From: Amphibalanus amphitrite
Lineage: Eukaryota; Arthropoda; Thecostraca; Balanomorpha; Balanidae
Direction of reading: 5' to 3'
DNA length: 64,000 nt
Assembly: GCF_019059575.1 (NCBI RefSeq)
Contig: NW_024881786.1
Coordinates: 1-64,000 of the forward strand
Part shown: piece after piece, positions 15,020 to 36,429 of the stretch
Numbering within the stretch: position 1 is the first letter of the stretch
Layout of the letters: each line of letters opens with the position of its first letter
Made by a program: the position numbers and the translations under genes
Notes under the pieces: generated by a model
The model's input: only the letters and a program-made list of their open reading frames with translations
Databases searched by the model: none
Told to the model about the DNA's origin: nothing

Positions 15020-16165
15020 GGGACCCTTTAGGTAATCAGGGGCGTTTCAGATGACCAGGGGTTTTCAATTGATCAGGGGCCCACCAGGTGACCATGGGCC
15101 CCTCTGGTAACCAGGCGCCCCTCAAGTAACCAGGGACCCCATCAATAACCAGGGCCCCTCAGTAAACGGGGGCCACTCAGGTAAGTGTAGGAGTCCCGCA
15201 GATAACCAGGGCCGGCAAGGCTTCTCAGGTCCGTTTTTGACAAGGCTCTTATTGACTCAGGTGCGAGCCCTTTGCCATCAGCAGATGGTCCTTTCAAGCC
15301 TTTTGAGGGCCGTTTAACGTCTCTTGAGTTTCCATTGAGGCCTTCTAAGGGCCCTTTGAGCAGTCGAGGGGCCTTTGAGGCCTTTTGAGGGCCTCTTGAC
15401 GTCAGCTGAGGACCGTTGGACGCCAGCTGAGGATCGTTTTTGGGCCTTCTGATGGCCATAAGACGCCAATAGATGACCCTCTGAAACCAACTGGGGCCCT
15501 CTGACACCAGCTAAGGGCACTTTAAGTTTGACGCTAGCTCAGGGCCCTCTGACCCTAGCTCAAGGTCCTTTGACGCTCTTTAAGGCCTTCTGAGGGCCCA
15601 TTGAGGTCTTCTAGTTCTAAGGGCCCCTTGAGGCTTTCTAAGGGCCCTTTGAGGCTTTTTAAGGGCCGCTTGACGCCAGCTGAGGACCGTTGGACTCCAG
15701 CTGAGGACCGTTTGAGGCCTTCTGATGGCCATTTGGCGCCAGCTGTGGGCCATCTGGCACCAGCTGGGGGCCCTCTGACACCAGCTAAGGACCCTTTAGA
15801 GCCTTCGGAGAGCCGTTTGACGCAAGGACATGGCCCTCTGACGCCAGCTCAGGGACCTTTGACACCCTTTAAGGCCTTCTGACGTCCGTTTGACGTTAGC
15901 TGAGGGCCCTTTGAGGCCATCTGAGGGCCCTTTAAGGCCATCTGAGAGCCCTGTGAGGTCATCTGAGGGCCCCTTAAGGCCATCTGATGGCCCTTTGACA
16001 CCATCTAAGGGCCCTTTGACACCAGATGAGGGCCCTATGACGCTGAGGGCCCTTTGAGGTCATCTGAGGGCCCTTCGAGGCCAACTGAGGGCCTTTTGAG
16101 ACCATCTGAGGGCCCTTTAAGGCCATTTGAGGGCCCTTTGTACACGGTCTTCGGTGGTCTAAGGA
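15020..16165. repeat. TCTGAGGGCCCTTTGAGGCCA minisatellite
   Basis: About 1.1 kb of tandem units near 20-25 bp, centred on the palindrome GGGCCC and including CAGCTGAGGGCC and GAGGGCCCTTTGAGG variants. Homogeneity is highest near 15,900-16,140 and fades leftwards, suggesting expansion from the right side of the element. Confidence 0.9.
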
Positions 16166-16174
16166 TTAGTTAGA

Positions 16175-16213
16175 GGCCCATTTGAGGCGGCCTTCGGCCG
16201 CCTCAAATGGGCC
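16175..16213. repeat. Perfect hairpin, 18-bp arms and 3-nt loop
   Basis: GGCCCATTTGAGGCGGCC, loop TTC, then the exact complement. It lies at the border of the minisatellite and the G-rich right end of the hAT-like element. Such a short loop would allow efficient extrusion. Confidence 0.85.
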
Positions 16214-16424: not shown

Positions 16425-17445
16425 TTAACCCGCGCACCGACGGGGGGGCGGATATCCGCCCCCCTGAGGTTTTTCGCGAATAGCGGGAAAACCGCGGCGC
16501 GTAGCGCCGCGAAATTTGGTATGACTATTTGCTCATCAATTTTACACATGGTGCGCAAGTTTGAACCTCCTACCTTTAAAGGTCAGGTCACCAGGTCACT
16601 TTGAATGACCCAACCTCAAGTCACTTTTTTGCAACTTTGTCACCGTGCCAGAGCTACAGTAGATGTCGGAGGCCTTTGAAAGTCGCAGGATGTTATAAGG
16701 TCATTAGTAGCTACAAGTTGTATATCTCGGAATTTTGATATCGGTGACCTAAGGTCAGGTCAATTTCGCGACCTCCCCATTATAAGTCAATGGGGGAAAA
16801 ATCAACTCCCTATTTTTACCACTAAAACGGGTCGGAATGGCCCCATATACCATACATGACTTCATATACGATCAACCTTCACTACCTTGAGGTCTGTTTT
16901 GCTGTTGGGCAGCTATGAGGTCATGTGACGTCATCAAAGGTCACCAAAGGTTTTTGGCCAATAACTCCGTACAGGAACAAGATACAGCCGCGTAGATGGT
17001 CTCATTGTGTTCAGCTCGTCAAGACGCATCTAGACGCATCAAGACGAATGATATACATGATGACCTCGAGGTCACGTGACCTGAGGTCAACCTTTGACCT
17101 TGACCTTTCGAGGTCAACATATATATCATTCGATGCGGATTGACGAGAGGATCACGATGATGCCCTTAGTTTGCTCCTATCTTGACTAATTCGAAAGTTA
17201 TTCGAGAAAAACTCTCTCCATATCTAGCGCCGCCATTTTGAATTTTTCGACCCCTGTGACGTCATCTTTGACCTGACCTGAAAATGACCTTAGTAAAAAT
17301 TGTAGATCTTGACCGTGCGTATCCGATGCCGTTTACCGCTTGTCGCTATCTTGCTTCGTTCTCGAGATCTCAGGGGGGGGGGCGGTCATCCGCCCCCCCC
17401 CGTCGGTGCGAAGTTGGCGCAGACCCCCGTCGGTGCGCGGGTTAA
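16425..17445. mobile_element. piggyBac-like element A (TTAACCCGCGCACCGACGG)
   Basis: It is bounded by TTAA on both sides, with inverted ends TTAACCCGCGCACCGACGG; TTAA duplications and a CCC start are piggyBac traits. Just inside each end a poly-G/poly-C hairpin encloses CGGATATCCG (left) or CGGTCATCCG (right). The right end repeats its tip core GTCGGTGCG about 36 nt inward. The interior is 1 kb, non-coding and full of AGGTCA/TGACCT motifs. It is nested in the CACTG-ended element. Confidence 0.75.
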
Positions 17446-18576
17446 GTAGGAACAAGACGATGCTTCTTTTGAACATCGTCACTAAACAAGCCGCCCTCGT
17501 TTTGACATTGTTTTTCGTTATTATTGTTACTAGGTACTTTGTTATCACACACAGCATTAACGAGGACCTGCTTCCAAAACAAGGCAGAAACGCTCCAGCT
17601 ATTTTTGGGACGTGGTAAAAACTAACCGACACCTGGTAACTGTCATCTGACGAACACAAAACAAGCCAGGGGCTCGCAGCGTGTGTCAAAAGTAGGATGC
17701 AAAACTAGTCTGTACCCCCGACATTTAGCGTTGAGAATCATTTGACGAGGGGCTAGTCAATATTTTTTACAGTGTGAAACACCCAGCTCAATAGAGGCAA
17801 TTATGATAATGACAGCAGGTAAGCAAAGCAAAAACAAAATCAAATATTTCTTCTACAGAAAAAAGCACTTGTACCCACTCAACTTAATTTTACTAAATCA
17901 CTGATTTGAATTATCAGTCATCACCAGACTTGCAAAAAACTTTCTATGATATTATGCCACAAAAAAACAAAGTATCTGAAATTGCACAATATAAGCACCA
18001 GCCACTGGAGCGGTATGATGGGGTCTCGTAACTTGAATGTTCGGTCTGTAAGAGCATGCCTGACTTGACTTAACGGCTTTGAGACATCACCTTTGCAGCA
18101 GCTCCTCCTATTCTTTTTTAACATTAACTTAAACTATCATTACCATGCTATGATGATGAGGTGGCTGGTTTCGGGCGCATGAAAAGTAGCAGTCCTTCTT
18201 TCATTCTATTTCCTTGTTTTCACATGCTGCACAAAATGTTTTTTCTTCCACGTTCCTTCTGTCATTATAAAAAATAATAGGTATCATAATTGCTTCACTT
18301 CTTCTTTATATTCCAAGTATTGCTGCTGCAATTCATCACATCTCCCGTTTGTAAACCATTGCCCTATGGCCGCTAAAGTAAATAAGTGGAATGCGCCAGA
18401 AATTGTCAAAATCGCGCCAAAATAGCAAACTAAGATGAGAAAAAATAACCGCACCCCTTCTGGCCGGATAGGTCGTCAGAACTAGCGGAATGTGCCTGAA
18501 ATGTCTCGTTAGTGGAATAAATGTCTCGGTATCGGAATTCCACTATCTGGCAACTAGCCCCATGTAAACGCGGCTA

Positions 18577-19199
18577 ATATTACATGTCGTTAACCGTAGT
18601 ACCGATTGTTTCACTCATTGTCCCTACCTCGTCAAGCTTCCTTTTAGCTAGCCTCACAGCTTTATTAATCCGCGCCGGGCCGGGACTTCCGCGCCGTCTT
18701 AAAGAAACCTCGGAATAATGCAAGAAGTTGCAGCTTTGCAGTGCCCCCAGTGTAAGGGAACCTTTTGCAGGAGATGAAACAAGTAACGCGGCATATGGTA
18801 ACGGGCAACGGCTCTTGAGAGTTCACAACATCCATTCCTCCAACTTCCCTAAATGTTCGCCCAAGGTCAAGCTGATCACGTGACTTCACTAATATAAGTC
18901 AATGGGAAATATTGAAACATTGAAGCTGTTATTTTGATGCCGAAAATGATCCAAGCCCATCTCAAACGTCTGTAATCGTCTGCAACGATTACATCGTCTG
19001 CATGTACACTTCTGCAAGGAGCGATTCTTAGGTTTGCACTGGGGACCTTGCATGGCGTCGTATATGCTGGTACTTTGTATGGTCGTGTGAAGTCATCGTT
19101 TTTTTCCAATGACTTTGAATGGAATAATATATCGAGTTGAATAATCCACCATGGTGAACTCAGGGAACCCCCCTGCTGAACCGAATAATATGCTTACGA
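18577..19199. other. Intergenic, nothing recognised
   Basis: Unique-looking mixed-composition sequence. No credible frame, RNA gene or repeat was found. Confidence 0.5.
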
Positions 19200-19462
19200 T
19201 AGTCGTTTTCACGAAGGTTATCTAACACACATTTACTGATACCTATTTGATGGGATTTCGTCAAATTGGGTTCATAGTTGATTCTTAATTGTTTTTAGCT
19301 TGGGTTGCGCAGGCGCTAATTCCCTATTGACCTTATTTGTCAAATTATTAGTCATTACTTTTTACTCAAACATTGGAATAAAATTGCATTATGAAAATAG
19401 CTGTAGTAAAAGATATTTGGCTAGATTCGTTCGTCTGATACCTATCCGTCGTGAAAACGGCT
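19200..19462. mobile_element. MITE, GCCGTTTTCACGACGG ends (copy 1)
   Basis: About 260 bp with inverted ends related to TAGCCGTTTTCACGACGG and an AT-rich interior containing TCAAATTGGGTTCA. It shares ends and interior phrases with copies at 22,444, 23,067 and 52,672. Possible TA target sites suggest a Tc1/mariner-type MITE. Confidence 0.55.
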
Positions 19463-19589
19463 GAAATGGCCGTTTTTATGTCACTGTTCGTTTTTTATGT
19501 CACTGACCTGAGGTCAGTTAGAGGTCATTACGTCGTAATGTTAAGCCTATGCGCCACTGAAAGCATTTTTACACTCACATCGCCGTATT

Positions 19590-21170
19590 AACACCACCTA
19601 AAGGTGTACCTAAATAGCAGACTGAGCACTATACGCAGGTCTATAACACGGCAATTACGCTTAGAAACTGATCAAAGCGAAATTACACCTCGTTGGTGTG
19701 CAAATCACACTCATACAACACCTTATGGAAGTGCAATTCTGAACTTAAACACCTAGCTTTTGTTCATTTACGAACAACACCTTCCTGTAGTGTAGCTGAT
19801 CGCGCTTCATGTGTGCTGTGTTATTGACAAAGGATCCTTGATCTGCGATTGCCGCATTTTTGTCTTGGCTCAACACTGCTCTGAAGTGTAATGTACCGGA
19901 CGGCAAAGGCGCATGCGCGTGATGCCGTTCGCAGTTCGCACCCACGCGGCTTTCAGTGCGCCATTGTGCTTCAACGAACGTGGTTGTTAGTGTGCTGAGC
20001 TGGTGTGACTATTGAGCATTGAGGAAGACCCACCTGCTCCGGAACGGGTAAGTAGATGACAGCATTTTCGAGATTATACTTTTTCTCGAAAAATTAGGAC
20101 GTGCGTGATTTCCAAAGCTAATTTGTAATGCAGGGATGGGAAAAATGAGGCGCGCCGTGGTGCTGACTCTGCTCTGCTTCTCTTGATGGTACTTATGGCA
20201 CTAGGATTATTGGTTTTTGCTTCATCCTTGTTTAATACTAGAACTTCGTGAAATATTTACGTTTGGAGACCTCCAGTGACCTCAGCAATGACCTGATCAA
20301 AAAATGACCTGAATGATTCTGAACGATCTATAACGAGCTATCTGTTGCTTTTGTCTGCGTCCTAGCTATACTTTCTTAGATAACCTGGTGTGCCCCCCTC
20401 CCCCCCATGGCGAAGTTGGCTGAGAGGCCCACCCGGGCGCGGGTTAAACTTTCTGGCAGCGGCAAGTATGAGTAATTTCGCTTCCCATGTGTGTTTCAGA
20501 GAAGGAACTCGAACACCTTCTACTCGAGATGCGTGAGGAGCAGGTCGTTTTTGGCCCTGCGACAACGAACGGACCGTCCACCATCGCAGATGGCGCACTT
20601 TGGGTCGAAAGGGAGAAGATCATCAAATTCCAAACAATGGCGAACATGCAGAACGAGCTGCATACATCACGAACATCGCTATCTTTTTCGAGCGCGCTCG
20701 AAGGCGCTGGACTCGAACGCCTAGCCCCGGTTCATATCTGCAGAGGACTCGCCGTTTCATGTACTTGTTTCATGGATCAACGTCCAATAAACGTTAAAAT
20801 ATTCTGACATTATACTGGTGTGTATTCTTCGTAAAGAGCGTGAGCGCGACTGGTGCATGGGGGAAAGGGGGGAGGAAAGGGGAAGAGGATCTGGAATCAA
20901 CAACACCCGAAATCGGATCGATACATACACTCGGAAGGCGTGCTCTGCTCTATAGGTGTAACACTACAGTAAAAGGTCAATCACGAGTGTACCCGCCTTT
21001 TTCATCCGCCTGGAGAGTGTAAACGTGCAAAGTCAACGCCCCGGGCGAGTGTCTTGTTACACTTTATTTGAGTGTAAATATTACACCTCAGACGAGGGTA
21101 AAAAACGCAGGATTTCAGCTACACCCTCCTGAGGTGTTTACACCCGAGGAAGGTGTAAAAAAGTTTTCAG
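19590..21170. repeat. Region bounded by AGGTGTA/ACACCT repeat blocks
   Basis: Blocks near 19,590-19,760 and 20,940-21,170 contain many AGGTGTAAA and TTACACCT motifs in both orientations and look like the two ends of one element. Between them lie a GC-rich promoter-like stretch, a strong donor GTAAGT at 20,048 and a candidate terminal exon at 20,500. A truncated right end of the TTAACCCGCGC family (about 20,380-20,447) is also inside. Confidence 0.4.
20529..20807 (+). CDS. Candidate terminal exon, small unknown protein
   Basis: A possible 3' exon begins after the acceptor GTGTTTCAG (exon from 20,500). Its frame is open to 20,807 and the first internal ATG is at 20,529, giving 92 residues. The N-terminal half is acidic and polar, with MREEQ and WVEREK stretches that look helical. 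A polyadenylation signal AATAAA overlaps the 3' end (20,786-20,791). The upstream partner could be the sequence ending at the donor at 20,048. I do not recognise the protein. It may be a gene of the surrounding transposable element or a chance frame. Confidence 0.3.
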   Translation: MREEQVVFGPATTNGPSTIADGALWVEREKIIKFQTMANMQNELHTSRTSLSFSSALEGAGLERLAPVHICRGLAVSCTCFMDQRPINVKIF

Positions 21171-22127
21171 TGGGAAAATATTCAATTCGGAAAATACTGG
21201 AGATATCCGCTTTGTTTTATCACTTTTGTGCTTTGAAACCACAGTACATAACAGCATGTCGCTTGGTGCTTCTTTATTTGGTGTACTTATCCAAGGGTCA
21301 GGTCAAATGAGGTCAACTGAGGTCAAATGACATTTTTGCCAATAACTTGGCACACAATGACGCTAGAGCTTAAAAATAGTGTCATTGTGTTCCTGGTGAT
21401 CAGCCGAAGCGAATGATATGCGATATGATGCAATTTGGTTAACTTGAACTTAATTAATTACCTAATTAAAGTTTACTTAATAATAAGAAAATTTTAAGTA
21501 CACTTAAGCAAGCAAAACAGTATATCATTCGACGCACCTTGACGTGCTGAGTTCACTGGTGCTTTTCTTTTTGCTCTATCTTAATTAGATCAAAAGTTAG
21601 AAGCGAAAAACTTTTGACCTGTTTTTAGCGAAATTTTTACATTACAAATTTTTACCCCCTAAACCTCCCTAAATATTGACTGACCTAGAGCAACCAAATT
21701 TGCACAGGGGCGAGAACTCCAGGGTGCCCATCTACCAAATTTGGTGTTTCTAGGTGCCATAGGAGCCAATCGCGAGGGGGGTCGCATCAACCCCCCTCCC
21801 CCTGCCAGGCCGTGTTATGAAAAATCCCCTGCCATGACAAGAGTTAAGTTGCTTGGGGCAATATCTCTCAAAGTATTGGACGGATAAGATTGAAAATGTC
21901 ACAACACGAATCGCCGGGCAAGATAGCCCCAGAGGCGAAATTCCATCAAAGTGTGAGAGGTATGGTGTTATTTAGCGATTTTTTGGTCGATCTGGTGTGG
22001 AACACTCCAACTGCGCTGGAGATGGTGGAGATGGTTGAGGTTAAAAATTAGTTTCGAATCGAATCACATAACGTTGAAAAAATATCCCTAGCGTGACCGA
22101 CTTTCTTCAATTTCTTTGCAACTAAAA
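21171..22127. other. Non-coding, AGGTCA-rich, poly-G hairpin
   Basis: No gene is seen. It contains several AGGTCA repeats (about 21,296-21,330) and a poly-G/poly-C hairpin around TCGCATCAA at about 21,776-21,805. It is probably decayed transposon sequence of the same kind as the TTAACCCGCGC elements. Confidence 0.4.
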
Positions 22128-22168
22128 CTGTCTCAAATAGCCACACCCTGTGGGACTATTTGAGACAG
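22128..22168. repeat. 13-bp hairpin CTGTCTCAAATAG
   Basis: CTGTCTCAAATAG and its perfect complement are separated by 15 nt. A related GGGGCTATTTGAGAC phrase occurs at 1,824-1,840, so this is a dispersed element end rather than a local accident. Confidence 0.6.
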
Positions 22169-22210
22169 GATTCAACAAAAACATAACTTTCATCATTACA
22201 TACCAGCTGC

Positions 22211-22359
22211 CAGTGGCATCGGAACATTCTAAATTAAGGGGGGGGGGGCACCACCGACTTTTGGTCCCATTCTTTCCATGCAACGTCCATAGCAGCGTCA
22301 ATGTTACCATGCCAAAATTAAGGGGGGGGGCCGGTGCCCCCCGCGTTCCGCCGCCTATG
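22211..22359. mobile_element. Short hAT-like MITE with poly-G tracts (copy 1)
   Basis: About 150 bp between CAGTGGCATCGGAAC and CGTTCCGCCGCCTATG. The flanking octamers CCAGCTGC and CTTGCTGC match at 6 of 8 positions. The interior contains two poly-G runs separated by GACTTTTGGTCCCATTC. A close relative lies at 53,404. Confidence 0.55.
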
Positions 22360-22443
22360 CTTGCTGCACCGAAATGCGCCTATCTGAAAGAGGTCACAAC
22401 CCACAGAGAAGCACATTATTTGTAATTTACATGTGATAGGAAA

Positions 22444-22722
22444 TAGCCGTTTTCACGACGGGCTATCCGTCGAATGCACCTGATTTGACCAAAAATTAGG
22501 CTAATTTCTTTTACAGCAAATATCTTCGTTTTATGAATTTGTTTCAGTGTTTTAATCGATGATGCTCTCTGATAATATGACAGAGCAGGCATATAAGCAA
22601 TTAGTGCAACTCTAGCTGATAGCTGCTAAGAGACACACTGAACCTGATTTGACCAAATATGCACCTAATCTGTACCAGATGTGCACCAAATGTGTACCAG
22701 ATGGCCGTCTTGAAAACGGCTA
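22444..22722. mobile_element. MITE, TAGCCGTTTTCACGACGG ends (copy 2)
   Basis: About 280 bp, with left end TAGCCGTTTTCACGACGG and right end CCGTCTTGAAAACGGCTA. The AT-rich interior contains TGATTTGACCAAA phrases. No coding capacity. Confidence 0.65.
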
Positions 22723-23066
22723 ATATGAACCATTTTTAAAGGAAAGGCAAACAAAACTGTAAGTCCCGTCTCAAAACCTTACGGTACCAAGTTAGGTTAA
22801 ATAAGTAAAGTAACCATACGATGATCCTGTCCTCACTTCAACTTTTCTCCTAGAAGCTTGAAACTCTCTGTGCTTCATAAAGGCACGAGCGCCAATAGTC
22901 TGGAGGTAGGTAAGTTTAAGATTTAACCCTATTACTGGCGGTATCGGCGCCAAAGGGACTATGGGGCATGTCCCAGTGCCCCTGTCTACGCCCCTGCTTT
23001 TTGGCACACATTTTGGTTCATATGTGGTGTAGATTTGGTGCATATTTGGTAAATTAGGTTCATTGC

Positions 23067-23371
23067 AGCCGTTTTCACGACGGCTATCTGATACACATTT
23101 GGTTCACGTTTGGTGCAGATTTGGTCAAATTAGGTTCGTCGTATTTTCTTATATAGTAGTTATCAGCTTGGGTTACACATGGTACTTCTAATGTACCTTG
23201 TTTTTTTTTAATTATCAGGCATTATTTTCTATCAAAACACTTAAATGAATTCATGATATGAGGATCTTTGTTGTAAAAGATGTTTGGTGCAGATTGTGTC
23301 AAATTACCAGATTGGGTAGATTGGGTAGTGGTAGGTGCTTTCGCCAGATAACCCGTCATGAAAATGGTTTA
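23067..23371. mobile_element. MITE, AGCCGTTTTCACGACGG ends (copy 3)
   Basis: About 300 bp with ends AGCCGTTTTCACGACGG and CCGTCATGAAAATGGTTTA. The interior shares CACATTTGGT, GGTGCAGATT and TCAAATTAGGTTC phrases with the other copies. Confidence 0.65.
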
Positions 23372-24880
23372 TACAATGGTATGTAGGCACATTGCCATGA
23401 CTTGTCTAAGGTATTCTACGATGAAGTTTTAAGCACAAATCGACCAAAGCATGGTAATTAACAGAATTCTCTCGAAATCAAGTATCAACAACCGTTTTCT
23501 CTGCCCTAACGACCACCCATGACCCAACCCATTCTAATTTTGGATCACACTGTCGCTGTCCCTGGCTGGTGACCTCCGTGGGTGGCCTGTCCCACCGCGC
23601 GGTGCACGCTCCCGTCCTGCAGTGGGACATGGGGTCGGCCGCCGCTCCGCAGCCGCAGCGGACCTACCGATTGGTCGTCGGAGATCAAACCAGCCCAAGC
23701 CCGAACATTGGCCGATCCAGAAAGGCGGTCTTGGACGCTGCGTGCCGGCATACCCCCCCCCCCCAAAAAAAAAGATTCTCCAAATTACAAAAACTCAATG
23801 GATTACGATTCCATATGGCCTACGCAATACGCGCTGCTGCGCAGTTTTAGCAACAAACTTTTCCTAATATCTTCAAGTTGTTAAGTTTTCTAAAAAAAAA
23901 ATCAGCAAGTACGGGCGCTGCGGGTTATTTACCCCAAATGCCCATCCCCCAGGGGGTCCCCTGGATCTGCCAGTGAGCCCAAACCAATCCATCAGCCCTT
24001 GGTCCTGACTTGGTCTGCAGATCAGCCGTCGTCGTCTGGCTCCGGACGGTCGCGAGTCGCGACATCTATGTATACCCACAAAAGTCAGCCCATGAGTGCG
24101 CTGGCCGAGTGTCGAGTGAGGAAGGTAGCTATGTGGGGGAATGTGGGGTAAGACGGCCAAGGAAGGTCAAACGGCCACCCCTTCCGGTCTCTGCAGACCT
24201 AAGCAGTACCTAACACTACGAGCGAGATATTTTAGGACCAGAGCTGCCTTGCCCACCACAAGCCACCATTGAAGCCAGGTGGGTTTGTGGTCAGCCGACG
24301 ATTCGCTATTTTGATATATTTAAAAACGCCCATTTCATTGAAAACATTGGTGGTGTATTGTGTATTGTGTAAGCTTTCGTGTGCAGCTCCCTGGAGTTAA
24401 GAAATCGCAATGCCCTGTGGTATATTTATATGCTACCAGTGTTCATTTACCGTGCTTTGCTCTACCTGCATTGAACTATCCTATGGAGAAATGACGCTGA
24501 ATTTCTGGCGCTGAGTTTGGGGTCAGACGGCGGCCAAGTAGGATCCAATGGGTCTTTCTATGGTAAAAATATTAGGGTTTGCTGTAGGAGCAAACAAAAA
24601 GGTATTTCTGGTGCTAATATGTTCGACTTCGATGCTTACAGACAAATATAAGGTACATATTTTTCGTCGTAGAATAACCGTATGCTCACTATCTTTAAAC
24701 AGTCCGAAATTAGCCTCAATGAGTGAATATTTTTCGTAAACGTTCCTTCTTCAGTTCGAAAATTGACTATACAATGCACAAAAAAGTACAAAATTGTTAA
24801 ACGTCACAAAGCGCCGCATTGACTGATCCAATTAACGAATATTAGTGACATTATCGTGCCATATAAGGAGCACGGCCTCT
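23372..24880. other. Intergenic, nothing recognised
   Basis: Mixed composition, with a short GC-rich patch near 23,570-23,740 and 23,930-24,180. The frames there are short and show no domain. I see no repeat structure. Confidence 0.45.
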
Positions 24881-26929
24881 TTAACCCGCGCCCCGCTGGG
24901 GGGGGGGGGGGGGCAGAATCTGCCCCCCTTCCGTTTTTTGCCAATAACTTCTAAACGCGTTATGCCAGCAAAGTCAAACTTTCAGTACCTAATCATACAT
25001 CAATTTGACACGTTCCCTGAAAATGTGAGCGAAATCCGTCGGAAAATTTTTGAGAAAATGACGTTTTAGTGACGTCATGTTCGCCATTTTCGCCTAAAAA
25101 CGGCAAAATTTCAAACGCCGCTAACATCTTCATTTTTAAAGGAGTCAAGACGTAACAAAAAGTTATACGTGATTTTACTTTGTCTATCAAATGGCTATCT
25201 CGGTTTTTGGAAAATTTTGGATTTTGGTCCAATTTTTTTTCTTAAAAAACTGACTTTTTTTGGAAAATAATCATACAATCCAAAAATTTGAGTGTATCGA
25301 AAAACCAGAATATATGTCAGAGAAGTGGTCTATGTGCACCTACCTACCAATTTTTAGAAGAATCGGCTCAAAAATGTAGGGAGTTATTCAAAATTTTATG
25401 ACGTTACGACACACAAAATTAAAAAAAAATATTTTTTTTTGGAAATTCTAGACCTCGTACGGGAACAAAAATAGCACCATTCGATTCGCCGTGAAAAACT
25501 GCATCAGATAGACACCTTTTTAGGCCTTAACAACCAACTTCAAAATTTGACTTCACTTGACCTGACCTTGACCTGACCTCGACCTGAAATTCATCCAGAT
25601 GTGGTCCATATCACTTATTGAGTGTGCCTATTGAATTCTATGAATAAAATGACCAATAAAACATGTGTCGCACATGCCCTTTTCTATATTTTGTTTTTGG
25701 TGACCTGACCTGACCTGACCTGACCTTGACCTTGACCTTTGAATGATATTTCATGCAACGAATATGGTCTTGGTAGCCTAAGAACACGTTTTGGGCAATC
25801 AGTCTCCGTCAATTCTTCGGCAACTACGGTGCAAGGCCGATACTGTAGAAACTTGCATTTTGTACCCTTGACCTGACCTTGACCTGACCTCTGACCTACT
25901 TAAGCAAAAAACTTTGGGCTTTTAAGATCCGCCTTGTTGAGAGCTTTCGATTGCCGTTTTCCCCGTCTTTCTACGACCATCGGTTCGGAAGTTAGACGGG
26001 GGGGGGGGGGGGGCAGAATCTGCCGCTCCCCACACTGAGAAACACTCAAGCCTATCCATGGTTCTCGGAGACCATGCAGGGGTCGTTCTGGTCTTGTATG
26101 AGAGCCTCAATTGGGGAGAACTTTGTTTACAGTTGTTGGTCTCCAGTTTGGTAAAGTTCTCAGGTTTTTCCCGTAACGTTCTCGAGTGAGAATGGTGTGC
26201 TATCTTGAACGAGAGCTTTGCCCGGATAAGGTACTCTTATACTGCGGGATGATCTCCCATGAGAACCTTTACCAGGTCATGAGATCATAAACGAACACAA
26301 TTCCCGCTCATAATATGATCCTGTATGGTCTCCGAGAACTTTACAACTTAAGAGCGCCGGCTTTCCTGGCACGGCATTCGCGCTCACGACCCATTCCCCC
26401 CCTCTCCCCTCCCTGTAGAGCGCCAGCTTTTCATGGCACAGCATCCGCGTTCTCGATCCTTCCCATTCCCTCCATGCACAAACAAGGTAAAGAACAGGCA
26501 TGTATATTTATTGTGTCAGATGTCAAAAAACTCACTCTGGAACAGAACATGCGATGCAGTCATTCGAACATTTTGAACATTTTGTTTCAAAAGCTGCCCA
26601 AACCCTTTCGCTTGCCGCCCCAGTCAAAACTGACCAGCGTGCTGAGTTTCAACTGTGTCGTTTAGCAAGAGACCATAATATCTCCCGGTGCACGACAGCT
26701 CAGTCCCTTTACTTTACTTTTAACACGGAATGCAGGTAAGTGCAAAAATGCATGTCAAGCGGTGTTCCCCACGGTCCACAGACTGTGCGAACGATGTACA
26801 ATTCAAACACTGTTAAGTACAGGCACGTACAATGAGTTACACAGGCACAGACATTAAAAAGTTAATACAGGTAAAATGTATGGGCTGGCATGTGAACACT
26901 ACCGACGGCAGTCCATGTGAGACCGAAGT

Positions 26930-27094
26930 CTAGCCATAGGAGCGGCGGAGGCGACGACAGCCGGTTGGCCGCTCTAGACAGTTTGCGCAGCTGGTAGCTG
27001 CATCTGGCTGGGGAGGAGCTACTCCAGCATGGCAGCCTGCTGACTGCTGAACCATGAGCGCCATCAGACGCTCCAGCTGCTCGTTGTCTCCCAT
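26930..27094 (-). CDS. Small ORF, unknown, inside the CACTG-ended element
   Basis: 54 codons starting MGDNEQLERLMALMVQQ, an amphipathic N-terminus of a kind often seen at the start of transposon or gag-like proteins, then a Cys-containing Pro/Ala-rich tail. It is preceded on the minus strand by CpG-rich sequence (27,220-27,420) that could be a promoter. I recognise no family and it may be a remnant first exon. Confidence 0.25.
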   Translation of the reverse strand: MGDNEQLERLMALMVQQSAGCHAGVAPPQPDAATSCANCLERPTGCRRLRRSYG

Positions 27095-28047
27095 CACCGG
27101 TACGAGCGATCCGACACGACGGTGTTAACTTATGTGCGTCTCTGAATCGGTGTCGCGCACAGGGTCAATCTCACTCGCGTACTGGCCACGCATATTATCG
27201 ATTACACCACTATTTCACTATTTCACTGTGGCCGGACCGTCTCGGCGAACACGCCTCACCTCACCTCGCGGCACTCAGCTGTGTTGACACCAGCGCCGCT
27301 CGGACGATACTGACCCTCGGCCGCTCGGCCCGGCCCGGCCGGTCAAGGTCGTTCAAGGTCACGGCTGTCAAGGCGCGACACGCGTGACCCAGGGCCGGGA
27401 CACAACAGGGACATTTTGGCGTTGTGCCCGATGAGTTGCCTCACTTCGGTGTCCAACATTGAGAGCATCGTCTCTACGGCTTCTTGCTCTGAAAGGGAGA
27501 GTAAGACAAATATTAGAGAAACGGCAGAAACGCTTAATTTCTAAGCCATATCCTCAAAGCACACGAATTGGTATTTAAGCAGATTTTGCTAACACACACA
27601 GATGGCAATCGCAACCTGTCCTATATCCCAAAAATGGGCAATGGCACACAGATTTTGCCACCTCCCAGAGTAAGTAATTACCTTTGCTGTGGTTACTTTC
27701 AAGCTGTTAAGTGCACACAAAGAATACAGAAAACAAACTCACCATGAGACGTTCGCGCTGTGCGCCAGACACCAACTCGCGAAAGGAACAACCACGCTGC
27801 CGGCAGCCTTCGCAGTGCTTTCGAGAAAGGAAGGACCGGAAGCACTGAGGCATTATAGAGGTGTTCCTTAGGGATATCCATTTGAATTGGTTTGAACTGT
27901 TAAAATCGATAAACATCGTGTCATATAGTAAGGCTCTTTTTCATTAAAAATTATTTCTTCTACTGAAAAATACATGTTTTATTTTTATCAATAATTGCTA
28001 TTTTCCTAAGCGAAAATGGAATCGCAGCACTTCAAACTGCTCTACTC

Positions 28048-29222
28048 TTAACCCGCGCCCCGTAGGGCTACCGGCGGACCCTACCACCCGTAGGGGGGGG
28101 GGGGGGGCCGTTTCGGCCCCCCCTAAGATCTCGGAAAGTTACCGGCCGATTTTCAAAATTCAAACGGCGTTCGATAGCCCCACCCGGGAACTACCTTGTG
28201 ACCAAATTTCATTGACCTAGGTCAAACCGATGACGTCACAGGTCAGGTCAAAGGTCAGATTTTCACCGTTCACAGGCAATTCAAGAAATGTGCTGTGAAA
28301 GCGAGTAAATTGGTAATTTATTGAAAACCATCGATGGTACATTGTTCGTCAAACACATACTTTGCTATCTGAGGTCACTGATACCAGGTCAGGTCACAGC
28401 GAGGTCAGGTCACCGGGGGTCACAATATGAATGTGTCGTGTGATACATGTTTTATAGTCCATTTTACATGACAAATGCGATTATGTGGGTTAGGCAGCCT
28501 TTGGGGCCAGCCTAGGTCACGTTTTGGTGAAGGTCAGGTCAAGGTCAGGTCAAATTAGGTCAAATTTCAAAGTTGATATTTTTGCATAAAATGGGTATCG
28601 ATTCGATGCAGCTCGTCACGGGGAGTCTAATGGTGGTCTTCGTTTTGCTCTACGAGTTCTAGAATTGCCAAAAATTGAGTTTGAAAATTTGACGTCATCA
28701 TTTTTGAACAGTTTTTTTGCTATAACTTGGCCAAAAAACGAGGTATCGATATGAAATTTGGCATGTAGATAGAAGACGGTAGGCACTATCACATATATTC
28801 TGTTTTTTTTGAAACTCAAAAAACTTTTTGGATTTTTTGGCGAATATATAAAAAAAATGCTTTTTTGATTTTTGGGGGTCAAAACTCAAAAATTTCAAAA
28901 ACTCGAGATGGCAGTTTTGTAGCCCTGTCAATTCTACACCTTTTATGTCTGGATCATTTTTCTGTATCTTCAAAGCTGTAGTCCTGACAGGTCTTCTCGC
29001 GAAGGTCTTTTTTCGGTCGAAAATGACAGAACATGACGTCACTCTGACGTCATTTGTGGCCAACCTATCATAGCCTCTGGTAAAATTTTTGGTCACAATG
29101 TGTAAAATTGATGCCCGGAGGGGTCCTGAAAGTTTGGTGGCGATATCTCCAGCCGTTTAGGAGATATCGACCGAAAAGGACAGGGGGGCCGTTTCGGCCC
29201 CCCCCTACGGGGCGCGGGTTAA
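28048..29222. mobile_element. piggyBac-like element B (TTAACCCGCGCCCCGTAGGG)
   Basis: TTAA-bounded, inverted ends TTAACCCGCGCCCCGTAGGG, 1.17 kb. Both ends carry a G-run/C-run hairpin with the identical core CCGTTTCGG. Here the tip core is duplicated at the left end (CCCGTAGGG again about 35 nt inward). The interior is non-coding with AGGTCAGGTCA repeats. It is nested inside the CACTG-ended element. Confidence 0.8.
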
Positions 29223-29616
29223 CACAGCGCCACCTACGCCTTTAGTTTCCTTCTGTGCTGACATCTGTCGTCAAAACACGTCAGCTGCGAGAACTATAAG
29301 GAAAAAAGTGAGAAGTTTACCATCCTTTCTGACCGAATGACTGCTGGTTCGAATCTCACCGCAGACCGACTGTTTGCGTTACACGGGTAGCTAGACAACT
29401 TCCAGTACTAAACTATCTCGGTCAAGACCAAATCCACTCCTGAAACCGAAGTGGAGACCATGCACAGTTCTCGGGAAAGACCAATTCCTCAAAGCGGCAA
29501 AATGGAAACCATCGAAGGTACTCAGGTGAGTACTATCAGTATAAGTTCCAAAATGTGTTTCTCAGTGCAGCAGGGCGCGTATGTATGGCTGAATAGCCCA
29601 GCGGGGCGCGGGTTAA

Positions 29617-30098
29617 ACCAACGCAAGACTAAAATGACAAAAGAAAACATAAGGTCGCTTAACCAAGTACAACATGAGGTCACTTATAACCTAACGGAAC
29701 AAAACAGATTATTCAATCATGAATAAGACGATATTCAATCATGTTGCTGATTTTAGTACTTCGCCACCTTAATGCATATTTTTCGGTTTAATTTACCTAT
29801 TTTTTTAAAATTAAAAGAGAGACAGCTTTGCAAGAGTTCCAAACAACTGACTCCAAACAATTGACTCCGAATCCTGCCACCATTGCGCGATCGGATGGTA
29901 GAGAGCAGGGTCAACGCAACAAGCTTCGCTTCGCTGGGGATCTGTCCTTGTAAATCCTTCCATTCAAAAAGGTTCGCGGACTAAATTGAAGAAAAAAAAA
30001 ACTATGAACGTAACTGATGAACGATGTGGTCATAGGCAATGATCCTGATTTAAAATCAAATTAATTCCAATGATTTTAATGACATGTAAAAAATTGCA
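29617..30098. other. Intergenic, nothing recognised
   Basis: AT-rich sequence with no credible frame or repeat. Confidence 0.4.
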
Positions 30099-30544
30099 TA
30101 GATTAGGTGCAAACAGCCTACCTATAGCAGAGATAAAGCTTTACAAAAACACGAATAGTAAACTAGACTAAGATATAAAATATCAAAATGACACATTCTA
30201 TAAATGAACTTTTTAACGGCAGAAACGGCGAATAATGGGAAGCCACCTGTCTTGCAGCAGGGCACCAGAGTTGCGGTGCCCTGCTCTGGTGCCCTCATTC
30301 TTTGGGCTTCCCCAAAGTGGGCCACCTGTCTTGCAGCAGGGCACCAGAGTTGCGGTGCCCTGCTCTGGTGCCCTCATTCTTTGGGCTTCCCCAAAGTGGG
30401 CTTCCCATTATTCGCCGTTTCTGCCGTTAAAAAGTTCATTTATAGAATGTATCATTTTGATATTTTATATCTTAGTCTAGTTTACTATTCGTGTTTTTGT
30501 AAAGCTTTATCTCTGCTATAGATACTGTTTGCACCTAATCTATC
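30099..30544. mobile_element. Fold-back element with 145-bp arms
   Basis: The arms (about 30,099-30,243 and 30,400-30,544) are nearly perfect inverted copies; I see very few mismatches, one of them ACAC against ATAC. Between them is an 80-bp unit present twice in tandem, itself containing the inverted phrase GCAGGGCACCAGAG / CTCTGGTGCCC. The direct repeat CCAATGATTTT occurs close to each side (30,066 and 30,544), but the left copy is about 22 nt from the arm. The translated frames are symmetrical artefacts. Confidence 0.75.
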
Positions 30545-30699
30545 CAATGATTTTGGTACGTACGATGAATTATAGGTACCTGGGGGATTATCAGCACACA
30601 ATCTAATGGAATATAACATTTTTTTCGAGTAGTCTTTTTAGCCGATTTCGAATTTGGCACTCTTTTGAGCGCTTAATAGGTAGTTTTGGTGGTTGACAC

Positions 30700-31108
30700 T
30701 TCGGCACTATGGATAGCCGGCGGGACGCCTACTGGTTGACCTGACTTGACCTGACCCAACCTAGTTACCTTACCTACTCCAAATCCACGAATGCATCACA
30801 TCGGATCAAAACTAATATGAAATTCGAAATCAGGATCCCGAACTAACCATCACAGCCTGAATTTGAAAAGTTCAAGCAGGTCCCGCTTTTCAACACTTTG
30901 GCCTGACCTGGAAGGTCAACCAATGACCCAGGAACTTAAAACTGGGCATCATCGACTTCTCCTGGTCACGGGCAGCACGCTTGTTTTTATTTTTATCTTT
31001 ATTTTTATTTTTTGACGAAGCTCTTGCTCGATCAGGGGCCCAGGACCCCAGACTCCCCCCCCCCCCGTAGGTCAGCGGCGGACAAAGCGCCAATACGGGC
31101 GAGGGTTA
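30700..31108. mobile_element. Truncated piggyBac-like right end
   Basis: It ends in CCAATACGGGCGAGGGTTAA, preceded by a poly-C tract and a second related motif, with TGACCTGACC motifs further left (about 30,738-30,760). No matching left end was found, so this is a fragment. Confidence 0.4.
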
Positions 31109-31119
31109 AACACTTTTAT

Positions 31120-31963
31120 CTATCCTAAAATTGTTGAGCATTCTAGCTACGCGAGGAAAACTGCGAATTTCCGTCGCTGTGGGAGGCACCGTTAATGCCT
31201 GAAATGTGAACCTGTCAGAGGCTAGCCAATACTGACTCGGTCCGTCGGCGGCGGCCATCCTCCAGCAGTGGCCGATTAGACCCGTGCACATGCAAAACAG
31301 GATCAGTGACCTTGAGTGGCGACCAGGTACCCCAGCAGCCGGCAGTGACGTCAGCCGACGCAGCGCTCCCGATTGGTCGAGAACTCAGGTATGAGTGAGC
31401 CACTCCGCTTGGTCTGCCGTGCAGCAGAGGTGCGGGCCGCCGGCAGAGCCCCGCGATCGGCGGCTGGGTGCAGGGATTCGGTTTCGGGACGAGCTTTGCT
31501 GACACTGCCAGCCCCGTCCAAACACCGATTATCTCCCCGCGTCGGCTCGACAGCGACTGTTTGCGAGTGTCGCGCGGCCAGTCTTTACGCCACAGACCCG
31601 CACGGTGACGTCACGCATTTTCCCGGCGGACGCGTGCGTTCGTTTGTGACGTCAGCGCGGGCCGCGCGGCGGCGGCGGCGGCGGCGCGGCGGCCGTTGAT
31701 TCAGACTCCGGTGAGCTGCAGTCGGTGACGGTGCCTCCGCCGGTGTGCCGCGGACCTGTGACGGTGTGAGACTCCCTGTCGAACGCGGGGCATGGGAGCA
31801 GCGCGGTCGGCGGGCGATACCGTTTTCCCAGCTGCAGTCTCCCAGTCTGAGGCGGAGGGTGGGTTTTGTGGCGCCCTCCCACCGGAGAAAGTGAGGTGGT
31901 TGGCGGTTGGACGGCGGCTCGCGGTGTGACAGAGCCTGGGGCGTGGCAGCAGTCCCCCGGAGG
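31120..31963 (+). promoter_or_regulatory. CpG-rich promoter region upstream of exon 1a
   Basis: CpG density rises sharply from about 31,200 and peaks near 31,540-31,960, where a (GGC)n tract is present. TGACGTCA-like CRE half-sites occur (for example GTGACGTCACGC near 31,604 and GTGACGTCAGCG near 31,645). No TATA box is obvious. The region ends at the ATG of the signal-peptide exon at 31,964, so it is best read as promoter plus 5' untranslated region. Confidence 0.5.
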
Positions 31964-32027
31964 ATGGAGCTGAACGCGAGGACCGTGCTGGGGGCCGTGC
32001 TGCTGCTGGCTGCCTGCGCGACACCAG
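31964..32027 (+). CDS. Pvr: Receptor exon 1a: alternative signal peptide
   Basis: The ATG at 31,964 opens a 21-codon frame: short polar N-terminus (MELNAR), hydrophobic core TVLGAVLLLAACA, then TP and the first base of a Gly codon. The donor is GTTAGA (weak but usable), phase 1. Exon 1b at 46,810 has the same design and the same phase and also ends Pro-Gly, so both can be spliced to exon 2 at 47,271. With this exon, intron 1 would be 15.2 kb. It could instead belong to another secreted protein whose later exons are not visible, but no other phase-compatible exon was found in between. Confidence 0.6.
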
Positions 32028-33039
32028 GTTAGACGGGCCGCGCGCCCAGTGTGTGTGTAGGTATGTGTGTGTGTGTGTGGGGGGGGGGGGTAAACCCCAG
32101 GAGGACAGGTAGGTACTCAGTACTCAGTGATAGGCTGGCGCTGTCTACCGCAGGGGAATTGATCGTCTCAGTGTCGTCTGGCGTGCTTAGCCGTCGCACT
32201 ATTGTTTAACTGACACTGGACGTGGTTGTGGTGTGACAGATTTTGGTTACACCTGTCTATGGAGCTGCAGACGTTGTTTGGAGCCTGCATAAGCCGTTTC
32301 TTCTGGCATTCTGCCCGTTTGTGTGTTGAATCCTGGATGCCAGACTGCATGTGTCATGTGGACCTATTGTGTGCTTTATACCTATACCGGAGATTGGCTG
32401 AAAGCCTGAAACGGCCCAGCGGCCGCACACAATGTGTGTGGGAAACTGTCCGGTGTTTCCCTACCGGCCATTACCCTGTTCGGACGGAAACGGCCCGGTT
32501 CCGCCGCCCCGCGCCCCCCCCCCCCAGTCCTTAGTCCGTTATACCCTGTCCCATTGGCCACGGCCCAGTTCCGCCGCGCCCCGCGGGTCGCTTTCGCCTC
32601 TCAGCCGCCCATGGTGCCACGGCCGGGCCTTCAGGCACACGCGGTGGGGGCGAGACCACCTTTCTTCGTCTGCCCCACCGGACCACCTCTCATGTATCCA
32701 TGGTATTTTATTTCCATCCTCGTAAACGGTCATTGTTACCTAATGGGCGCGTCCCATCTCTATTACGCGTTGTGTGAGGTGCTGATGGCCTAATCTGTTC
32801 ACAATAAACCTAAGGCCGCCTCCAGGCCTCACCGCAAGTGATCGGCAACACAGGCGGTCGTGTAGGCCGCGCCCTATTTTAGGTCTGGTCACTGCATGGT
32901 TCGGTCGCTCGGACAGACGATTGCAGGTCGGTGAGTACCTTCACCCGGGCGTTCGGCGGCGGGCGGGCGTCCGCGGGTCGTCCGCGGGCGGGCCGTCCGC
33001 CGTATGGCTGTGAGCCGTCCGCGGGCCGTCCGCGGGCCG
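32028..33039 (+). other. Pvr: Intron 1a, proximal part
   Basis: A GT-rich microsatellite (32,050-32,090) is followed by moderately GC-rich sequence without recognisable exons. CpG density rises again from 32,930. Confidence 0.4.
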
Positions 33040-33915
33040 TCCTGGCCAGGGTCGCCGGGGCAGCCTCTGAGCCTCTCTGCGCGCCGCGGTCGCAGCTACG
33101 GGTCGGTCGGCGCCCCGTCCTACCTGCGGGCCGTCCGTCCGGGGGCGGGCCGTCCGCCGTATGACTGTCAACGGTGCTCAGTGTCCACCTGTTGATCGGC
33201 TTCCGGTCCGCCTCCCTGGCCCGTCAGCCGCGGTCGGTCGGTCCTGGTCCGTCGCGTCGGTCGGTCCTGGTCCGTCAGCCGCGGTCGGTCAGTCCTGGTC
33301 GGTCGTCCCTGGTCCGTCAGCCGCGGTCTGTCGGTCCTGGTCCGTCGGTCCTGGTCCCCCAGCCGCGGCCGGTCGGTCCTGGCCCGTCGCGTCGGTCCTG
33401 TTCCGTCGGTCCTGGTTCAGCCACCTGCCCACGGACAGTCGCCGAGGACTGCAGTCCCGGCCGACAGACGGTTCTAGGCCGCGGCCACGTCCAGCTCATG
33501 TTTAATTAATCAGCGCGGCTCGCAGTGCCCTGATCACGCGCCCGGTACGGCCTGTCTCAGGTGCCGAGGAATGCGGGACCTTTTCCTCACCAACACGGCG
33601 CCGGCTGAGCTGCGAGCGTGCCGGCCGGCCGGTCCGGTATACCGGCTCAGAGGGGGGGGGGGGGGGAGGACAGACCGGTCCCGCCGGGGGGCCGCGCAGC
33701 GCCCCCTCCCCTCCCTCCTCCACGCTCGTGACTGAACAATGGTGCCCTGCAGAGGGCTCGCTCTCTTCCTGAGTCGGGGTCGACCAAGGCCGCCGCGGCC
33801 GCCGGCGGCGCCTGGCCAGGGCCGGGTCGCCGGGGCAGCCTCTGAGCCTCTCTGCGCGGCGCGGTCGCAGCTACGGGTCGGTCGGCGGCGCCGTCCTACC
33901 TGGCGCCGCGCGGTC
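33040..33915. repeat. Duplicated CpG segment (about 100 bp, two copies)
   Basis: The segment around 33,040-33,140 recurs at about 33,812-33,915, both including GCAGCCTCTGAGCCTCTCTG and CGGTCGCAGCTACGGGTCGG. The spacing is about 775 bp. It looks like a local duplication of a regulatory or untranslated segment. I see no coding constraint, since the reading frames differ by indels. Confidence 0.7.
33190..33430. repeat. GGTCGGTCCTGGTCCGTCAGCC minisatellite
   Basis: Tandem units of 15-30 bp made of CGGTCGGTCCTGGTCCGTC and CAGCCGCGGTC. The array sits between the two copies of the duplicated CpG segment. Confidence 0.85.
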
Positions 33916-34742
33916 CGTCCCTATCTGGACCGTATCAGCGCGGTGACGCTGACCGGCCGGCCGGCCCGACCGCCACTCACAACTGCTGCGGCGGGTATAC
34001 CCGGCCCGTGTCCAGTGAGACAAACAGCCTGCAACTCGCCGGGACCAGCCGCCCGACACCAGCAGTCCGGGGCTGCTCGGTACCGCCCGTGCCGCGGGCC
34101 GGGCCCATTGAGCCCGCCGCTCGACCGGGCAGCCCGGCGCACCGGTATACACCGGCGGCGGAAACTGAGCTGCCTTTGCCGGGTCCTGTGACGGACTCGG
34201 GGTCGCCATGGCTGCCCGGAGCGGGCCCGGACCGTGCCCGGAGCGGCGCGTGGCAAACCGAGAGTGAGTCAGGAAAGGCACGCCAGCAGGCGGGCCGCGC
34301 CAGTGATTTACCTGCCCGCTAGTACCGGCTAGTATGGTACAGAGTACAGTGCATATTGTGCTGAGTGTGCAGCATATATGTAGTACACGCTTGCTGCAAA
34401 ATATATAGAACCTGCTACACAGGCGCCCTCAGCAGCAGACTGAATGGGGGCGGTTGGTATGAGCGGAATGTGAAGCAAAATTATGATGTTTGCAGTTATG
34501 CTTCGCTTCAGAGGATTTCTAGTCGACTGCTCAGTGGTTACCTTAGCTTGGTTATGTAAACACTGCATTAGTCTGACTGAATTACTTAGTTGAGGGACAT
34601 TCGGTCGTTTTACATCGCCTAATTGTCGTCTAATAAAGTGGACGTTTAGATAGAGTTAATGATTTCAAGTCAGGCTGTTCTCAGATTCGAGTGACTTAAA
34701 GATGCCGTGACATTTTATTCTTCACATCGTAGCACAGGCCTC
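33916..34742. other. GC-rich then unique intronic sequence
   Basis: GC-rich to about 34,330, then AT-rich. The frames on both strands in the GC-rich part have no domain signature and look like composition artefacts. Confidence 0.4.
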
Positions 34743-36429
34743 TTAAAGGAACTATCCCACCTTCTAAAATGTTGTTAAAACCAGTTAAATTGTGCCCGAC
34801 TTTATAGATTGGATGACCAGGAACACGGTTCTGGCATTTATTTTTCATTAAACATCTTAGGCTTCCCATATTCCAAACACAAACTTTCAAATATGTGACG
34901 TCACAGCCCAAAATTACCTCCTTCCCCAGGCCACATTACTGTCATAAAGCTGATTCTTTTTACTCTGTAGGCACCACAACAAAGTTCAGACCAAGTTTTA
35001 AGCGATTTTTCAACGAACAAAGCCATTTAAATCAGAATGACTAAACGAGGTGACGTCACACTAACGGTCGCTCCATGTTGAAGATAGGGCCTTGCGCAAG
35101 GCCCATTTTCAAATGAAGGGAACGAATTTCTTCAACACCAAGAGGCCGCGGGGGTTGCAACCTAGATAGATAGTGGTTTCTGAACCTCGCCGCAAACTTG
35201 GCTATCTCAACTCAAACCCCATGTTAACCCGCGCATGACTGGGGGGGGGGCTCTACAGAGCTCCCTCCCGTTTTTCAGCAATATCTTCTAAACCGTTTGA
35301 CGGATCAACACGAAACTTGCAGTACCTTCGAAGGCATCAATTTGACACCTTTTGTCAAAATTTCAACTTTCTAGCTACCATAGTTTGACCGGAAATGACG
35401 TCAGAGTGACGTCATGTCGGCCGACTTTCATGCAAAATACTGAATTACGGCAAACGCTCTCAAGAGTTCAGTTTTAAAGCTAGATCCATTTTCTTTGCAT
35501 GAATGGATTACAAATACACGTAGCTATCAAACTGCCATCTCGAATTTTCGATATTTTGAAAATTTTGAAAAATATGTATTTACAATTACAAAAAGTATAT
35601 CTTTTATTTTTTTCCAAAAGTTTTTGATTTTTCGCAAAAACCGGAATATATGTGATAGAAAACACACTGATGAACTACATTTGCAAGTTTTAGCCCAATA
35701 TCTTCAAAAATAGCCAAGTTATTCGCATTATTGTCAAAATTTTACAATTTTATGTTTTTTCAAATCCATTTTTTAGTACGTTTTTGACGCCGTACAGCAA
35801 TATAAATGGCACCATCGTGTTCCTGAGCTCAAACTGCATCTGATAGGCGCCTTTTTGTTGAAAATTTTCATTTTCAAAATTTGACCTTTTCTGACCTGAA
35901 AGTGACCTGACCTCCGGTAAATTCAGCTGACAATAACCTCAAATGACACAGACGACACTATTTTCGAAATCTACGAGTAAAATGGACCATAAAACATGCG
36001 TCACGTGACCGATACATGATATACAATTTTCGTGACCTAGGATGACCTGGCCTTGACCTTAAAAATTCGAAGTAAAAGTTAGGTACCCTCAGGGTATCTA
36101 AGGCATCCTTCAAGGAGTGCGTACACCAAAAATGAGCCTGATCGGACCGGCTGTCCGGTGGTCAGAGCCTAAATTGTGAACTAGCAAAAATGTCGATAAT
36201 TTTTACTTTGACCTGACCTGTGACGTCATCGGTGACCTCGAGGTCAATGAAAATAGGTTTCGCTCGACAGTTTTTACAGGGCTATCAGACGCCGTTTGAA
36301 TTTTGACGATCGGCTCAGTAGTTTCGGAGATAGGAGGGGGGCTCTGGAGAGCCCCCCCCCCCCCCAGTCACTCGCGTTATAGATAATACCCCAGTCATGC
36401 GCGGGTTAAAGGTGGGATAGTCCCTTTAA
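34743..36429. mobile_element. TTAA-flanked element with AAAGGRACTATCCCACCTT ends
   Basis: Inverted ends TTAAAGGAACTATCCCACCT (34,743) and the complement of TTAAAGGGACTATCCCACCT (ending 36,429). TTAA targets fit piggyBac or Kolobok types. Without the nested element C it is about 500 bp, non-coding. Confidence 0.65.
35224..36409. mobile_element. piggyBac-like element C (TTAACCCGCGCATGACTGGG)
   Basis: TTAA-bounded with inverted ends TTAACCCGCGCATGACTGGG, 1.19 kb. The poly-G/poly-C hairpins have cores CTCTACAGAG (left) and CTCTGGAGAG (right). The right end repeats the CAGTCA(T/C) tip core about 32 nt inward. The interior contains TGACCTGACC motifs and no gene. It is inserted into the right terminal repeat of the TTAA element at 34,743. 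Confidence 0.8.

Follow-up and report, generated by a model that had tools for sequence, protein, structure and literature searches.

The closest described relatives of the elements reported here are piggyBac of Trichoplusia ni and the coral CMITE families I–VI. T. ni piggyBac (PMC7351741; structures 6x67 and 6x68) is described as targeting TTAA, with a palindromic internal repeat behind the tip and asymmetric ends, one of which carries a sequence duplication and an insertion, an arrangement called puzzling there (PMC7351741). The CMITEs (PMC2872659) are piggyBac-type miniature inverted-repeat transposable elements (MITEs) of ∼100 bp that also target TTAA and combine a conserved 75-bp internal region with different terminal inverted repeats (TIRs); their copy number is estimated at ∼1,600 in A. 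millepora, their TIRs are matched in families I–III, and one family is linked by its TIR to an autonomous element. Here we report elements of this kind from a 64,000-nucleotide stretch of the barnacle Amphibalanus amphitrite (contig NW_024881786.1, positions 1 to 64,000; hereafter the window). Each of the elements A–D in it represents a different multi-copy family of small non-coding piggyBac-type elements. We think it quite probable that these are non-autonomous piggyBac families in which a variable 8-bp word, X, and a neighboring palindrome are putative transposase binding sites, inherited by the family and kept matched at the two ends.

Read inward, an end consists of TTAA, a 7-bp tip (bp 1–7, numbering from the C after TTAA), X (bp 8–15), a G-run, a short palindromic core, and a C-run. 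The tip is nearly universal, CCCGCGC, less commonly CCCTCGC or CCTTCGC. At the short end X is joined directly to the G-run; at the long end X is followed by ∼19 bp and a second X before the G-run. Among the 52 paired elements described below, the spacing from X to X at the long end is 27 bp in 41, 26 bp in 8, 28 bp in 2, and 31 bp in the broken element D, the inner copy being located as the best match within a 22-bp range. Cores could be parsed at both ends in 45/52 elements, the other 7/52 having an unparsable core. TTAA flanks both ends in 43/52, A–D included, one flank is altered in 6/52, and an identical 4 bp other than TTAA stands on both sides in 3/52 (CTAG twice, ATAG once); these last (L011 2991-3900, L035 2460-5599, and L012 3472-4638) look like off-target insertions. 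The left and right arms inside the hairpins are unrelated (identity 0.724, compared with 0.703 when shuffled). A trace of foldback origin, which would appear as homology between left and right arms, was looked for and rejected, none being found.

The TTAA duplication, the CCC tip with inverted ends, the asymmetry of the ends, and a PF13843 transposase lying between such ends place the group in the piggyBac superfamily, the transposase being found not inside A–D but in an element designated C33, with both ends, and in a family designated C44, with the long end only. The small elements resemble T. ni piggyBac further in the homologous transposase of their genome. They differ from what is described for it (PMC7351741) in their tip sequences, in the placing of the palindrome between G and C runs, in being non-coding, and in that X and palindrome vary among many families of one genome. 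Like MITEs they are non-coding, homogeneous in length, and high in copy number, although MITEs are given as “usually less than 500 bp” (PMC2872659), a length that the small elements exceed. Their interiors are more conserved between families than their TIRs, a pattern already published for the coral CMITEs (PMC2872659). Compared with the CMITEs as described there, the present elements are larger (∼1 kb), are represented by 46,791 exact tips, contain the variable word a third time, internally, along with G/C-run palindromes, and have arms traceable to transposase-bearing elements. Our literature search found no description of a concerted change in three matched X copies; for the tip sequence it returned only unrelated papers, and for barnacle piggyBac nothing of use.

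Families and their end words

The tip sequence TTAACCCGCGC has nine exact occurrences in the window against 0.02 expected, and none of 100 shuffles contained nine or more. In the whole assembly, of which the window is part (807,550,619 bases in 2,644 contigs), there are 23,341 forward and 23,450 reverse exact tips, whereas the reversed control pattern yields only 75 and 67 matches; the tip is therefore the mark of a very large group of elements. We retrieved 40 stretches at tips on contig C1 and then paired their ends. Joining adjacent facing ends gave 42 mechanical pairs, reduced to 40 by dropping two that were mispaired, and 12 further pairs with a nested or abutting element between their ends were added by hand, with the tips known. 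The resulting 52 elements all lie in the initial 1.27 Mb of C1 or in the window; their uninterrupted copies are mostly 0.9–1.2 kb long. X is identical at both tips in 34/52 pairs (26/40 mechanical, 8/12 hand-added). The mean difference within an element is 0.48 of 8 positions, compared with 3.37 after random reassignment of the right ends (the lowest of 20,000 shuffles being 2.52), and the close agreement of the two ends of a copy, as noted in the first-pass annotation of the window, is thus far above chance.

That annotation had listed A–D as four full-length elements, with copy-specific, end-matched “barcodes” in their tips and hairpin cores. Three of the four are intact. Element A (16425..17445, +, 1021 bp) has its short end on the left and its long end on the right; its family X, ACCGACGG, lies at 16436..16443 (+) in the short end and at 17427..17434 (−) in the tip of the long end, with the internal copy 27 bp from the latter at 17400..17407 (−), and its short-end palindrome core CGGATATCCG at 16449..16458 (+). 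Element B (28048..29222, −, 1175 bp) has the long end on the left and the short end on the right, with family X CCCGTAGG and an internal X 28 bp in at the long end. Element C (35224..36409, +, 1186 bp) is oriented short end left, long end right, with family X ATGACTGG and an internal copy reading GTGACTGG. Element D (24881..29616, +; family X CCCGCTGG) retains both ends but is interrupted, its right end being split by a second transposable element (26033..29567, unstranded) that holds B and has 13-bp inverted tips, CACTGAGAAACAC at 26033 and GTGTTTCTCAGTG at 29555. The insert also cuts D's internal X copy, CCTGCTG; L032_302_1485 is a relative of D that lacks the interruption. The four tip words had been read correctly and are identical at both tips of each copy. 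The hairpin cores were as given at one end, the other end being not always the same: those of A differ (CGGATATCCG and CGGATGACCG), those of C are CTCTACAGAG and CTCTCCAGAG, and in B, as in D, one core read inward is the reverse complement of the other. The longest stop-to-stop frames span 74, 152, and 89 codons in A, B, and C, and tblastn with the C44 protein (E up to 1) found no match in the 52 elements or the window.

The words are not specific to single copies. Among the 52 elements there are 19 short-end X types, the largest with 13, 6, and 6 copies, and all four window tips recur in the sample: there are at least five further copies of A, three of D (one reading CCCGCTAG), one of B, and one, degraded, of C. 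That each copy might carry its own tag, matched at both ends, was suggested by the four window copies, which do differ, but this recurrence within a small sample refutes the idea. A–D are indeed four families, but one family per copy is not the rule: families are discrete and many are multi-copy, the very outcome that the first-pass annotation had set as its refuting case. Interior identity is 91.4–99.8% in A's family (five copies), 94.2–97.2% in the GGGGCTGG family, and 93.5–95.8% in the CCCAGTGG family, in a grouping that took in 41 of the 45 elements then collected, four longer than 1.5 kb being left out. A genome-wide search with the CCTGCTGG family's long-end pattern, X position 3 being unspecified, gave 4,394 exact matches; the short-end pattern, which this family has in common with D's family, gave 4,344, and among the short-end matches listed 22/100 have a C that fits D's family rather than CCTGCTGG. 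Pairing exact matches among the first 100 listed places per pattern, on contigs C1–C7, yielded 58 copies of the CCTGCTGG family, whose median length is 1,199 bp. From these comparisons, the “barcodes” are words of whole families, probably transposase binding sites, rather than tags of single copies. One more family has X CCGCCTGG and the perfect palindrome core TCGGATCCGA, with ends at L053 from 456 and at L020 5669 (−); its end in L053 adjoins the C103 transposase element, whose tips differ.

Change of X between families

Related families have homologous arms and interiors, yet X and often the palindrome differ. Comparing the 52 elements two by two gave 1,326 pairs, which are not independent of one another and in which unrelated arms score ∼0.70 with the aligner used, so that low bins mean little. 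With arm identity of at least 0.95, X differences per pair average 0.07 at the short end and 0.46 at the long end (112 pairs). At 0.90–0.95 both averages are 2.56, with 1.92 identical at both ends and none one-ended (25 pairs); at 0.85–0.90 they are 2.24 and 2.32, with 1.91 identical and 0.50 one-ended (34 pairs); and at 0.80–0.85 they are 3.07 and 3.12, with 2.62 identical and 0.10 one-ended (42 pairs). A sister comparison used the seven closest non-overlapping family pairs, chosen by their arms alone at an arm identity of 0.80–0.96. Here 20/56 short-end cells have changed; all 20 have changed at the long end too, 18 of them identically, and long-end changes number 22 in total. X thus differs at 36–39% of cells between sister families, compared with ∼10% for the arms (4–20% diverged). 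The change of X between families is concerted at the two ends and more rapid than that of its flanks.

The positions of X do not behave alike. In a table of 20 family rows, the three X copies mismatch in 7/240 cells at positions 2, 4, 5, and 6 and in 39/240 at positions 1, 3, 7, and 8, the positions having been grouped once the data had been inspected; CCTGCTGG is entered twice and C33 once, and the L022 family, whose internal copy is degraded, and C44 (one end) are excluded. Between families the most variable positions are 3, then 5 and 4. As a pattern in the letters, this suggests a recognized sequence.

Two other accounts of matched ends must be weighed against recognition. Under pure descent, X would have drifted neutrally in the master copies of each family, and ends would match only because the families are young. 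The near constancy of X among copies with arms of at least 0.95 identity agrees with this, and the tips of the CCATGTAG family do look drifted. But neutral drift does not lead one to expect X to outpace the arms between sister families, nor to do so in concert at the two ends: with independent drift most changes would be confined to one end, and only 2/22 long-end changes are of that sort. We regard pure descent as improbable. The other account, also raised in the first-pass annotation, is that the two ends of each copy are repeatedly homogenized by gene conversion or template switching between inverted ends, whereby either end would acquire the mutations of the other. The bacterial ISWpi1 is a reported case of TIR-to-TIR conversion (PMC3004938), and homogenization would readily produce sister families in which every short-end X change recurs at the long end, nearly always identically.

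What counts against it is that mismatches between the ends recur from copy to copy. At X position 3 the 58 copies of the CCTGCTGG family read, long end/short end, G/T in 36, T/T in 20, A/T in 2, and G/G in none. In A's family, core CGGATATCCG marks the short end and CGGATGACCG the long end in 5/6 copies; the remaining copy is decayed. All three copies of the CCCAGTGG family carry the tip CCTTCGC on their short end and CCCGCGC on their long end, and the same mismatch at bp 3–4 recurs in L021_1596 (X CCCGTTGG) and in C33, an autonomous element (X CCTGGTGG), while X is matched or nearly so. This mismatch lies three bases outside X and is common to families whose X differs at both ends; a conversion tract covering the tip would have erased it. 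The absence of left-right homology in the arms inside the hairpins also speaks against exchange between ends. Homogenization is accordingly rejected as a frequent process and, as a general explanation, is unlikely, although rare conversion tracts of <10 bp may have occurred over longer time scales. The G/T mismatch of the CCTGCTGG family shows that intermediates altered at one end can multiply, which makes a stepwise change of X possible.

Transposase-bearing elements and other features of the window

The genome holds 116 scored matches to PF13843, many of them with long open reading frames; the flanks of 10 loci were read first. At 4/10 (C1201, C103, C1, and C875) other TTAACCC tips were found, both ends agreeing in 16–18 of 18 letters; these lineages were rejected as partners because their tips are of another kind. 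The first look at the flanks of C264, C53, C531, C72, and C33 found no tip of the present kind. Ends of the present type were found at 2/10 loci, namely C44 (long end only) and, after further stretches were read, C33. The long end of C44 reads TTAACCCTCGC-ACGACCAG-spacer-ACGACCAG-G-run-palindrome, and C527 and C171 carry the same long end. The C44 protein matches the T. ni transposase 6x67 with E 1.4e-73 and PF13843 at 4.9e-70; its longer matches in the genome have at least 40% or at most 31% identity, with shorter fragments from 35% up. The 3′ arms of C44 type are 85–92% identical to the small elements L043_2501 and L011_2991, whose X differs.

The autonomous element C33 (C33:447032-451754, 4.7 kb) has both ends, long TTAACCCGCGC-CCTGGTGT...CCTGGTGG and short TTAACCTTCGC-CCTGGTGG. 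It encodes a 666-aa PF13843 frame 40% identical to C44, and its 3′ region is 70–75% identical to small-element interiors, a homology from which its end stretches were chosen. Stretches at C778 and C702, chosen as for C33, and at C42 contained no tip; that at C702 starts inside a C-run followed by long-arm sequence, and its tip probably lies just outside. The arms of the small elements are thus traceable to transposase-bearing elements. C44 and C33 both carry the long end on the 3′ side of the gene, as T. ni piggyBac does.

The window holds three further traces of such elements. A right tip at 20437..20447 (−), with X CCGGGTGG, belongs to a degraded element for which a search found no convincing left end. 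A degraded long end at 9956..10065 (+) reads TTAACCCGTGC CGTGCTGG ... CCTGCTGG, its long arm being sequence also found in the CCTGCTGG and CGTGCTGG families, and another, of TTAACCCTCGC type with X CCGTATTG, lies at 31000..31109 (−). Elsewhere in the sample a right and a left end abut on one shared TTAA at six places (L017 4349-4352, L018 1482-1485, L029 299-302, L037 1489-1492, L040 7566-7569, and L043 304-307) among 144 ends examined in a sample enriched for ends; we do not claim an excess of such head-to-tail elements, the number being not clearly above chance given that enrichment. At L031 4899-4930 two facing tips (TTAACCCTCGCCCC...GGGGCGAGGGTTAA) form a short palindrome, perhaps a relic of joined ends. 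The window also contains a long minisatellite of 21-bp units directly left of A (15260-16182), a 126-bp inverted repeat, 98% complementary, that flanks two identical 79-bp tandem units (30119-30524), and a 511-aa frame (38030-39562, −) matching Pfam DUF1759, a domain known from retrotransposon polyproteins. An Rfam scan of the window returned nothing at gathering score.

Putative recognition of the ends

By position and by comparison with published piggyBac structures, each part of the end has a candidate partner in the transposase. The catalytic domain would grip bp 2–6, for which reason the tip would be nearly universal; X would be the site of the DNA-binding domain (DDBD), and a dimer of the CRD, the C-terminal zinc domain, would bind the palindrome. 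The two ends of a copy would then agree because one transposase must bind both and because each family has few masters from which its copies derive. From one family to the next, X would shift stepwise through tolerated mismatches at one end, presumably tracking transposase specificity, and homogenization at the level of the copy would be unnecessary. Divergence of the transposases is the likeliest driver of the fast, coordinated change of X. We offer more tentatively, as a possibility that we would not rate as high as even, that X is a readable code of DDBD specificity, turning over several-fold faster than its flanks and in step at three sites, with the CRD palindrome changing more slowly.

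Several observations weigh against the reading of X and palindrome as inherited, matched binding sites. In the CCATGTAG family, both L011_2991 and L043_2501, the two copies sampled, have tips that differ from each other at 4/8 positions. Core TGTTTGAACA is found with X CCTGCTGG, CGGGCCGG, and CCAAGTGT; palindrome and X thus do not change as one unit, and a simple code of one transposase to one pair is not supported. No autonomous element with the X of A, B, C, or D appeared among the transposase loci examined. In the C44 copy (L059 with L069) a cysteine-rich, CRD-like stretch stands in a different frame from the rest, and judged by its frames this transposase copy looks broken. The mode by which both ends come to change together is, moreover, a step that we infer.

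Recognition by a shared transposase nonetheless lets a known architecture account for what had been puzzling matched “barcodes”. Many end families on homologous scaffolds, together with transposases of the same clade in one genome, form an extensive natural data set in which to ask which bases piggyBac reads and how end specificity evolves; the end arrangement found puzzling in T. ni is kept here while its sequence is replaced. If X is indeed such a specificity code, many non-coding families would be engaged in a running contest or partnership with diverging transposases, and the matched pairs of transposase and end in this one genome would form a natural library in which to read it.

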